Source: an uncultured Arenicella sp. (GTDB lineage Bacteria > Pseudomonadota > Gammaproteobacteria > Arenicellales > Arenicellaceae). From it: a DNA stretch of 59,142 bases. The notes under the pieces are model-generated. The model did not search any database and was not told where the DNA came from. It worked only from the letters and a program-made list of their open reading frames with translations. Positions within the stretch are counted from its first letter, which is position 1; each line of letters opens with the position of its first letter. Of this stretch, positions 13,336 through 17,165 are shown piece by piece. The position numbers were made by a program, and so were the translations under genes. The stretch spans positions 1 through 59,142 of the forward strand of contig CAJQNY010000044.1 in assembly GCA_905479805.1 (NCBI GenBank), in the 5' to 3' direction.

Positions 13336-14400
13336 ATGAAATCAGGGCAACAAGATACACCGGGCACCGATACTCCTAAGACCTCAAAACTGGCGAAGCT
13401 GTTTGGAAGGAAAAACTCTGCACCGCCTCATCAAGAACAACCAGCAGCTGAGACTGACCGCCCACAAACCAATCATGATCGAGTTGAGGATGGCTTAAAA
13501 GCCAGTAGTGGTGGTTTGTTGGGGAAGATCAGTCAGGTATTCAAAGGCACATTTGACCTTAATGATGAACTATTCGAGGACCTGGAAGAAGTTTTGATGT
13601 CGAGCGACATTGGCGTTAAGGCAAGTCTTGATCTTGTTGATAGACTAAGACTTCGGGTAGAAAGCCAGAAAGTTCATGATGCTAAAGGGGTTATTAGCGC
13701 GCTACGGTTTGAAATAGCAGAGTTGTTAAGTAGCTCCGAAACGGAATGGAACACGTCTCACCAACCCTATGTTCTATTGATGGTTGGGGTCAATGGTGTT
13801 GGAAAAACCACGACAACCGCGAAAATAGCGCAGCGGTTAAAAGAGCAAGGTAAGGTGGTAATGCTCGCCGCAGCCGATACGTTTAGAGCAGCCGCTGTAG
13901 AACAACTGCAAGAATGGGGAGATAAACTTGATATCCCAGTAATTTGTCAGGGTCAGGGCGCAGATGCCGCGGCAGTTGCTCACGATGCGCTTATTTCTGC
14001 AAGAGCCAAACAAGTCGACGTATTAATAATAGACACCGCTGGGCGGCTCCACACGCAAACTGATTTAATGGAACAATTACAGAAAGTAAATCGAGTTCTG
14101 CAAAAAATTGACCCCGATACACCCCATGAGGTTATGCAAATTTTGGACGCCGGCACTGGGCAAAACGCGATAACTCAGCTAGAAAGCTTCCAACAAGCAG
14201 TAGGTGTTAGTAGTATCTCAATCACTAAACTTGATGGCTCAGCCAAAGGTGGTGTTGCAATAGCCTTAGCACAAAACTTTGAACTACCAATCCGCTTTAT
14301 CGGCGTTGGTGAATCATACGATGATCTAAGGCCATTTAGTGCCACCCAATACGCAAATGCTCTTGTGCCCGAATTACATAAGATCGCTAGTGCTGGTTAA
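13336..14400 (+). CDS. ftsY: Signal recognition particle receptor FtsY
   Basis: 354 residues. Docks SRP-ribosome complexes at the inner membrane and delivers them to SecYEG; GTP hydrolysis is reciprocal with Ffh. A short acidic/charged A region (~residues 1-55, much shorter than in E. coli) precedes the N helical domain and the G domain: G1 GVNGVGKTTTT (~151-161), DTFRAAA, G3 DTAGR (~233) and G4 TKLDGSAKGG (~297). First gene of an ftsY-ftsE-ftsX run; the ftsE start is 18 bases after its stop. Confidence 0.97.
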   Translation: MKSGQQDTPGTDTPKTSKLAKLFGRKNSAPPHQEQPAAETDRPQTNHDRVEDGLKASSGGLLGKISQVFKGTFDLNDELFEDLEEVLMSSDIGVKASLDLVDRLRLRVESQKVHDAKGVISALRFEIAELLSSSETEWNTSHQPYVLLMVGVNGVGKTTTTAKIAQRLKEQGKVVMLAAADTFRAAAVEQLQEWGDKLDIPVICQGQGADAAAVAHDALISARAKQVDVLIIDTAGRLHTQTDLMEQLQKVNRVLQKIDPDTPHEVMQILDAGTGQNAITQLESFQQAVGVSSISITKLDGSAKGGVAIALAQNFELPIRFIGVGESYDDLRPFSATQYANALVPELHKIASAG

Positions 14401-14418: not shown

Positions 14419-15102
14419 ATGATCACTCTAGACCACGTTAGCAAGATATATCAAAACGGACATCAGGCACTCAATGATGTCAGCTTCAACATGGCCGCGG
14501 GTGAAATGGCCTTTTTATTGGGTCACTCCGGTGCTGGAAAGAGTACTCTATTTAAGTTAATAACGGCGATAGAAAAGCCCACATCGGGGCGAATTACGGT
14601 CGATGGAAAGAGCTTTGACAAGCTTAGAGATTCGCAGATACCCGCACTCAGACAAGAGATCGGAGTTGTTTTCCAAGACCACAAATTACTGTACGATCGC
14701 ACTGTATTTGATAACGTAGCACTTCCCTTAATCGTGATAGGAATGAGCCACGACGAAATCAAGAAACGTGTACGCGCTGCCCTTGGAAAAGTCGGCCTAA
14801 GCGGTAAAGAAAAGGTGTTGCCAGTTGCCCTTTCCGGCGGAGAACAACAACGAGTCGGCATTGCTAGAGCCGTTATTAATCGCCCCAATATATTGCTTGC
14901 TGATGAGCCCACAGGCAATCTCGACGAATCACTGTCGGATGAAATTCTAGATATCTTTGCCGATTTCAATCGTGTTGGTGTCACTGTATTAATCGCAACC
15001 CATGACCTTCGCCAAGTTGAACGTCTAAATAAACGTACGATTGAGCTATCCCAAGGAGAGATCACTGGTGGTGAAACTATCGAGCCCACAAAGCTAAGCT
15101 AA
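14419..15102 (+). CDS. ftsE: Cell division ABC transporter ATP-binding protein FtsE
   Basis: 227 residues. With FtsX forms a complex at the septum which regulates peptidoglycan hydrolases through EnvC-type partners. Visible ABC motifs: Walker A GHSGAGKST, Q-loop VFQDHKLL, signature LSGGEQQRVGIARA, Walker B LLADEPTGNLD and switch His in ATHD. Length matches E. coli FtsE (222). Lies between ftsY and ftsX. Confidence 0.97.
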   Translation: MITLDHVSKIYQNGHQALNDVSFNMAAGEMAFLLGHSGAGKSTLFKLITAIEKPTSGRITVDGKSFDKLRDSQIPALRQEIGVVFQDHKLLYDRTVFDNVALPLIVIGMSHDEIKKRVRAALGKVGLSGKEKVLPVALSGGEQQRVGIARAVINRPNILLADEPTGNLDESLSDEILDIFADFNRVGVTVLIATHDLRQVERLNKRTIELSQGEITGGETIEPTKLS

Positions 15103-15150: not shown

Positions 15151-16065
15151 ATGAGGACTTACTTAAACCGTCACCTACAAGTACTATTTGCGGCCATAGG
15201 GACATTTGCGCGCACACCTTTTGCTTCTCTCGCAACCATATTGATTATTGCGATCACTTTAGTGTTACCCAGCATACTGTACATCACCCTTAAGAGCGGA
15301 CAACAGATTGCCGAAGGCTGGCAGGGAAGACCACAAATATCAATCTTCATCGATACCGAGTTGGGCGCACAAGAGGCCAAATTAATTTTTGCTGAACTTA
15401 GCTTACACCCAGCAATTGAGACTGCTGAATTTTTGACGCCACAACAAGCCTTGGAGGAATTTACCGCATTGAGCGGTATGAGTTACGAGCTAGACTTCCT
15501 TGGTGAAAATCCACTCCCCGCTTCGATTGTCGCGATGCCCGATCAAGAAAATTCCGAATCTGACAGCTTGCAAGCCCTGAAGACGGAACTAGAAAAAATT
15601 GAAGGCATTGAATCGATAAGGCTGGACCTTGAATGGACGGACAAGTTCAATTCACTCTTAAATACCGCAGAACGCACAACCTATCTCTTGTTCGCACTTC
15701 TGAGTGCCGCTCTATTTCTAATAGTCGGCAATACGATTAAATTACTGATTATGAATCGTCGCGATGAGATTGAAGTCACAAAATTAGTCGGAGGAAGCAA
15801 TGCTTTCGTACGTCGCCCGTTCTTATATTACGGCTTTCTATTTGGAGTGTGTGGCGGTGTTTGCGCCTTGGTTCTGTTATATTTTTCTGCAATCTATATC
15901 AGCCCTGCTTTGGAGAACTTAGCCACTCTTTATCAAAAAGAAACACTGGTTTATCAACTTAATTGGCATGAATTACTTTGTATCGTGGCATTTGGCGGCG
16001 CCCTTGGCTGGATTGCAGCGAGACTTTCGGTTGCACGGCACTTACGGCACATCAAGCCAAGATAG
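15151..16065 (+). CDS. ftsX: Cell division protein FtsX
   Basis: 304 residues, four membrane helices: one after the N-terminal basic region (FASLATILIIAITLVLPSI), then a ~120-residue periplasmic domain (SIFIDTELGAQEAK...), and three more, including the MNRRDEIEVTKLVGGSN loop characteristic of FtsX. Partner of FtsE. The ATG at 15151 is preceded by TTAGGAAATT (AGGAA), giving a reasonable ribosome site. Confidence 0.96.
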   Translation: MRTYLNRHLQVLFAAIGTFARTPFASLATILIIAITLVLPSILYITLKSGQQIAEGWQGRPQISIFIDTELGAQEAKLIFAELSLHPAIETAEFLTPQQALEEFTALSGMSYELDFLGENPLPASIVAMPDQENSESDSLQALKTELEKIEGIESIRLDLEWTDKFNSLLNTAERTTYLLFALLSAALFLIVGNTIKLLIMNRRDEIEVTKLVGGSNAFVRRPFLYYGFLFGVCGGVCALVLLYFSAIYISPALENLATLYQKETLVYQLNWHELLCIVAFGGALGWIAARLSVARHLRHIKPR

Positions 16066-16133: not shown

Positions 16134-16176
16134 ATTTAGTTATAAAAACATTTTCTTTTAACATTAATTTAATTTA

Positions 16177-16203
16177 TTAGCACTCTATAGGCTTGAGTGC
16201 TAA
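16177..16203. promoter_or_regulatory. Perfect CIRCE element (HrcA operator) upstream of rpoH
   Basis: TTAGCACTC at 16177-16185, nine bases, then GAGTGCTAA at 16195-16203: both arms match the CIRCE consensus at all nine positions with the canonical nine-base spacer. CIRCE is the binding site of HrcA, the heat-labile repressor of chaperone genes. It lies 60 bases before the preferred rpoH start, between ftsX and rpoH, and so should control rpoH. hrcA is not in this window. Confidence 0.93.
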
Positions 16204-16263
16204 AATAGCCGCATGATCAACAGGTAGATAATGTTATTGCCTGTTAACGCGGAGAAGATGAAA

Positions 16264-17112
16264 ATGAAAAAGAAACCTTTTGCTATAACTCTAAACCAGG
16301 ACTCAAACCTTGCTGGCTTCTTGAAAGTAGCGAACAATGCGCCTGTTTTGAGCTCAGACCGAGAAGCGACCTTAGCGCGCCGATTTCGTGATAACGAAGA
16401 TGTGGACGCAGCGCGGGAACTTGTTGTTTCGCAATTGAGACACGTGATTCACGTGGCAAAGGGATTTACCGGTTATGGCCTTCCAGTGGCTGACCTGATT
16501 CAAGAAGGAAACATTGGCCTAATGAAAGCGGTAAAGAACTTCGATCCTGAGCGCGGCATTCGCTTAGTTTCCTATGCAGTACATTGGATTAAAGCTGAAA
16601 TATATGAGTATGTATTAAAGAACTGGAAGATGGTTAAAGTTGCTACCACCAAGGCGCAACGTAAACTTTTCTTTAATTTGCGCAAGTCGCGAAAGTCTTT
16701 AGATGCTATGACGGAGACCGAAACTCACGATTTAGCCGCAAAACTTGATGTGCCAGTAAAGACAGTTCGCCAAATGGAACTGCGAATGACCGGAACTGAT
16801 ATTTCCTTTGACGGAAATGACGATAGTGACGATGAATTTGTCACCAGTCCTTCAGGTTATTTGCCTGATATGCGCTACAACCCAGAAGAGTTGGCGATTG
16901 CATCTGAAACAAGTAGCAATAATAACTCCTCTTTGAAGGAAGCTATCAGCGACTTGGATGATAGAAGCCGCAATATACTTGAAAGACGTTGGTTGTCGGA
17001 CAAGAAAGCAACCTTGCATGAGTTGGCTGATGAATACAATGTCTCGGCTGAACGAATTCGTCAAATTGAAAAACGTGCTATGGAAAAAATGAAGGTCCAA
17101 TTGGCCGCATAA
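16264..17112 (+). CDS. rpoH: Heat-shock sigma factor RpoH (sigma-32)
   Basis: 282 residues from ATG 16264. Directs RNA polymerase to chaperone and protease genes. Region 2 has the RpoH blocks GLPVADLIQEGNIGLMKAV, RLVSYAVHWIKAEI and, next to it, YVLKNWKMVKVATTKAQRKLFFNLRK, the RpoH box bound by core; region 4 ends with the helix-turn-helix LHELADEYNVSAERIRQIEK. GGAG at 16251-16254 has good spacing to ATG 16264; ATG 16258 is too close to it, and ATG 16231 gives a longer form. A CIRCE operator precedes it and a strong terminator follows. Confidence 0.96.
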   Translation: MKKKPFAITLNQDSNLAGFLKVANNAPVLSSDREATLARRFRDNEDVDAARELVVSQLRHVIHVAKGFTGYGLPVADLIQEGNIGLMKAVKNFDPERGIRLVSYAVHWIKAEIYEYVLKNWKMVKVATTKAQRKLFFNLRKSRKSLDAMTETETHDLAAKLDVPVKTVRQMELRMTGTDISFDGNDDSDDEFVTSPSGYLPDMRYNPEELAIASETSSNNNSSLKEAISDLDDRSRNILERRWLSDKKATLHELADEYNVSAERIRQIEKRAMEKMKVQLAA

Positions 17113-17139: not shown

Positions 17140-17165
17140 GCCCTCTCATATGAGAGGGCTTTTTT
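17140..17165 (+). terminator. Rho-independent terminator after rpoH
   Basis: Perfect 10-bp stem GCCCTCTCAT/ATGAGAGGGC (17140-17159) followed by six Ts (17160-17165), 28 bases after the rpoH stop. Confidence 0.93.

Follow-up and report, generated by a model that had tools for sequence, protein, structure and literature searches.

The window, meaning the whole 59,142-nucleotide stretch of DNA that was analysed, comes from an Arenicella-like gammaproteobacterial draft genome (2.88 Mb, 78% complete) and carries ftsY, ftsE, ftsX, a CIRCE element and rpoH in that order, followed by a glutathione reductase gene. The ftsY-ftsE-ftsX-rpoH order is identical in E. coli K-12. The features of the locus are:

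13336–14400, + strand: ftsY
14419–15102, + strand: ftsE
15151–16065, + strand: ftsX
16161–16167, + strand: site of the sigma-E −35 element GGAACTT of rpoE-bearing relatives, here ACATTAA (lost)
16177–16203, no strand assigned: CIRCE operator (predicted HrcA site), arms 16177–16185 and 16195–16203, spacer 16186–16194
16177–16182, + strand: −35-like TTAGCA in the left CIRCE arm (4/6, spacer 18; promoter scan and inference)
16198–16206, + strand: putative extended −10 TGCTAAAAT, right CIRCE arm plus AAT (flank conservation and promoter scan)
16212–16214, + strand: predicted rpoH transcription start, placed about 7 nt after the −10
16219–16245, + strand: leader stem-loop (same place in most genus members, sequence diverged)
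16251–16254, + strand: Shine-Dalgarno GGAG of rpoH (sequence and genus alignment)
16264–17112, + strand: rpoH (sigma-32), 282 aa from ATG 16264 (start from Shine-Dalgarno and genus alignment)
17140–17165, + strand: intrinsic terminator 3′ of rpoH (terminator prediction)

The operator, TTAGCACTC-TATAGGCTT-GAGTGCTAA, matches CIRCE at 18/18 positions with 0 mismatches. When matches to the pattern TTAGCACTC-N9-GAGTGCTAA with up to 3 mismatches were counted, it was the sole match in the window, where shuffled sequences gave an expectation of 0.01, and likewise the sole match in the 2.88-Mb draft, bearing out the perfect CIRCE of the original prediction and yielding none of the further sites that the prediction had proposed to look for. 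The downstream gene had been correctly named as rpoH, scoring 371.7 bits against the NCBIfam equivalog TIGR02392 (cut-off 323.1). Its longest open reading frame begins at ATG 16231, but the start is likely ATG 16264, as judged from the GGAG at 16251–16254 and the genus alignment; because the start is taken there, the CIRCE lies 60 bp upstream of a heat-shock gene, the distance originally given. With a terminator after the gene, rpoH is apparently transcribed as a monocistronic unit.

The leader stem-loop sits between the predicted transcription start and the Shine-Dalgarno sequence, with a mean folding z of −1.39 over 18 genus members (Stouffer −5.9), a score based on fold z only, the sequences being too diverged to align for pair counts. 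It may represent a leader hairpin or an RNA thermometer.

Comparison of rpoH upstream regions among relatives, which the original prediction had suggested, revealed strong conservation of the operator. Both CIRCE arms are unchanged across the 18/18 genus members, whereas variation is seen in the nine bases of the spacer. Among the 59 members of the order for which the region before rpoH was read, 58 carry a CIRCE with at most 3 mismatches there. The exception is G043, where hrcA is present and rpoH occurs twice (L329 and L330), with no CIRCE at either copy. Two other members of the order, G026 and G031 (L307 and L311), apparently have two tandem CIRCE-like elements before rpoH.

Across the class, we sampled genomes of 95% completeness or more, in most cases a single one from each family, giving 145 rpoH upstream regions. 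CIRCE was found in 107 of these, 56 of them perfect, and in 0/2900 shuffled rpoH upstream regions. It tracks hrcA, preceding rpoH in 101/110 hrcA-positive versus 6/35 hrcA-negative genomes (Fisher p 6e-17, uncorrected for shared ancestry and therefore descriptive rather than a strict test), which leaves 9 hrcA-positive genomes without the site. The six hrcA-negative genomes that keep a CIRCE-like site (L203, L233, L243, L246, L278 and L159) include one perfect element (L278) and two with a common altered form, TGTGCACTC...GAGTGTTAA; recent loss of hrcA or a different reader of the site is possible in these cases. A further draw from the same class, rich in other lineages and with hrcA searched in few of them, gave 6/22, and the overall class share is dependent on sampling. 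No CIRCE with at most 3 mismatches was seen in 45 rpoH upstream regions from other classes of the phylum. Judged by sequence matches, the CIRCE–rpoH arrangement thus turns out to be common to nearly all sampled gammaproteobacterial families with HrcA, rather than a rarity. E. coli is not among its bearers: nothing similar to CIRCE lies upstream of its rpoH, the best site having 8 mismatches of 18, as expected because a search for HrcA in E. coli finds no match.

Class sequences were anchored on CIRCE to reveal conserved flanks. AAT lies directly 3′ of the right arm, with T at CIRCE+29 in 100% of the genus, 90% of the rest of the order and 88% of the class; this T occurs at only 18% of groES CIRCE elements, making the AAT flank specific to rpoH sites. 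Together with the right arm it forms the candidate extended −10, and a promoter scan paired this with TTAGCA in the left arm at a score of 9/12, with TG before the −10. The consensus match is modest and promoter-like sites in the region were no more numerous than in shuffles; a search for a sigma-70 −35 of canonical form to accompany the extended −10 yielded only TTAGCA at spacing 18, and the idea was rejected. The predicted rpoH start falls about 10 nt 3′ of CIRCE, while the −10 overlaps the right arm. We consider it quite probable that 16177–16206 is a composite operator-promoter gated by HrcA. HrcA control of rpoH, the central claim of the original prediction, has gained good comparative support, from an operator that is genus-invariant, near-universal in the order and tied to hrcA in the class, but the site would form part of the promoter and be more than a neighbour of it.

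A second promoter pattern emerged from the same class alignment. GGAACTT, matched at 5/7 or more positions, stands at −16 before CIRCE in 66/107 class sites, with a median of 0 at other offsets, and the spacer of class CIRCE elements opens with T-x-A, so that the two together read GGAACTT-N16-TCTAA, a sigma-E (RpoE) pattern. GGAACTT is the −35 element of E. coli RpoE, on which the E. coli rpoH P3 promoter depends (PMC8103513); in E. coli TGAACTT-N16-TCTGA is located 121 nt before rpoH. Checked independently, the sigma-E −35 appears only in genomes with a canonical RpoE, in 66/96 of these versus 0/11 of the others in the class, and in 13/18 rpoE-positive versus 0/40 genomes of the order without canonical RpoE, counts that are again uncorrected for shared ancestry. 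Most rpoE-positive genomes therefore have a predicted sigma-E promoter with its −10 inside CIRCE, in the same arrangement as E. coli rpoH P3. In the genus of the window the sigma-E −35 is found in 0/18 members, and canonical RpoE (TIGR02939) in 0/21 genomes of the Arenicella-like family (G000–G020), our draft and genomes 97–99% complete included; such a loss is unusual in free-living members of the class. The window was also considered as a site of a sigma-E promoter, a reading rejected because it offers no match to the −35 and the family shows no canonical RpoE.

A second perfect CIRCE lies before groES in 14/18 genus members. At groES the CIRCE is placed after the −10 in a promoter of the form TTGACTT...TATTA. 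In the groES CIRCE loci L061–L090 a fixed CTTGACTTT...CCCTATTA immediately precedes the CIRCE, a sequence that fits overlapping sigma-70 and sigma-32 elements. The groES layout differs from that at rpoH, where the CIRCE arms themselves would make the −10 elements.

The original prediction also called for a search of the genome for hrcA. The search of our 78%-complete draft gave no match, nor did a search for groES, and the absence of hrcA, groES and a second CIRCE from the draft is explained by its incompleteness. In the close relative G003, hrcA (L298:8008–9045) is flanked by an ORF for a 139-aa membrane-protein-like product and by nadK. In our draft the counterpart of that ORF is cut short by the end of contig C152 (3,810 bp) and nadK starts about 70 bases into contig C93; because the flanking ORF ends one contig and nadK opens the other, the hrcA slot coincides with a contig gap, and hrcA is expected in this gap of about 1.35 kb between the ends of C152 and C93. 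The gene is present in 59/61 relatives searched, including 46/46 near-complete ones.

We infer HrcA binding, repression, release on heating and the transcription start point, and propose the following scheme. HrcA bound to CIRCE would cover the −10 elements of the rpoH promoter and exclude RNA polymerase at growth temperature, with TTAGCA in the left arm serving as a weak −35 and the extended −10 made up of the right arm and AAT. Heat or protein-folding stress would inactivate HrcA, allowing rpoH transcription, accumulation of sigma-32 and increased expression of chaperone genes, with groESL additionally freed directly through its own CIRCE. In RpoE-bearing relatives the one CIRCE would also contain the −10 element belonging to a counterpart of the sigma-E promoter P3 of E. 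coli rpoH, so that HrcA would gate both, whereas the family of the window would have lost RpoE and the sigma-E −35 and kept the HrcA-gated extended −10 promoter. On this basis HrcA control of rpoH is likely in many gammaproteobacterial families.

Other readings of the operator were weighed against this scheme. It is doubtful, though the most credible of these readings, that HrcA binds but plays a minor part, with translation and protein stability setting sigma-32 levels as in E. coli and CIRCE only trimming basal transcription. Control of sigma-32 in E. coli is mainly post-transcriptional, and the stem-loop in the leader of most genus members is consistent with a similar emphasis here, but the site is retained almost universally across families with hrcA, which points to a sizeable effect. 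We consider it unlikely that transcription begins at a promoter further upstream (GTTATAAA, about 16139–16147) and places CIRCE in the leader, where it would act as a DNA operator or roadblock, or else influence mRNA stability or translation as a stem-loop. An AT-rich GTTAT(A/T)AAA block is kept there in most of the genus and could be another −10, in which case the transcript would include CIRCE; as RNA, CIRCE folds into a 9-bp hairpin. However, the block has no consistent −35, both the AAT flank and the fixed-offset sigma-E −35 seen at class level put −10 elements within CIRCE, and a pure RNA function leaves the tie to hrcA unexplained.

Finally, CIRCE might be a relic in a lineage without HrcA, with rpoH controlled otherwise, which we regard as highly improbable. 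Besides the failure to find hrcA in the draft, hrcA is missing from one genus member that is 88% complete, and six hrcA-negative class genomes, as described above, keep a CIRCE-like site. Against this, the place of hrcA falls in a break of about 1.35 kb in the assembly of a draft that lacks groES as well, hrcA occurs in every near-complete relative, and the arms are without decay. The HrcA-gated composite promoter remains the preferred reading.

The idea of a CIRCE before rpoH is not new. A perfect CIRCE was predicted at −51 of rpoH in Geobacter sulfurreducens, where HrcA was also predicted to act on groESL and hrcA-grpE-dnaK-dnaJ (Rodionov et al. 2004, PMC545781, Table 8). Both that locus and the window thus have a perfect CIRCE before rpoH, but the Geobacter case is a single species from a different phylum, and the pertinent part of that account does not list the site for the related G. 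metallireducens and describes neither promoter overlap nor class-wide conservation (PMC545781). Our literature search found CIRCE before rpoH only for Geobacter, and no account of its class-wide extent or of an overlap between CIRCE and a sigma-E promoter. The operator and repressor family are those of HrcA/CIRCE control of groESL in proteobacteria and of the dnaK and groE operons in Bacillus. The parts are therefore ordinary, and it is the breadth of the arrangement and its interlocking with the promoter that are unexpected. A 2003 study by Permina and Gelfand is said to cover the beta and gamma groups and may list some rpoH CIRCE cases.

E. coli rpoH P3 shares both gene order and sigma-E geometry with the hrcA-positive, rpoE-positive relatives, but E. 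coli has neither CIRCE nor HrcA, whereas in most of these relatives the sigma-E −10 appears to be embedded in CIRCE. We lean slightly towards an ancestral gammaproteobacterial rpoH promoter that consisted of a CIRCE with a sigma-E −10 and a housekeeping extended −10, through which HrcA would have gated envelope-stress and basal supply of sigma-32. E. coli P3 would then be a remnant after loss of hrcA and CIRCE, and the Arenicella-like promoter would be what remains in the reverse case, after loss of the sigma-E half.

The textbook picture of rpoH control is drawn from E. coli and has no place for HrcA. If HrcA governs rpoH in most hrcA-bearing gammaproteobacterial families, control as known from E. 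coli would be a derived exception. The promoter layout opens this to direct test, including whether sigma-E, under envelope stress, raises sigma-32 only upon release of HrcA. If the proposed control is correct, the two heat-shock systems would form a single cascade, with HrcA above sigma-32.
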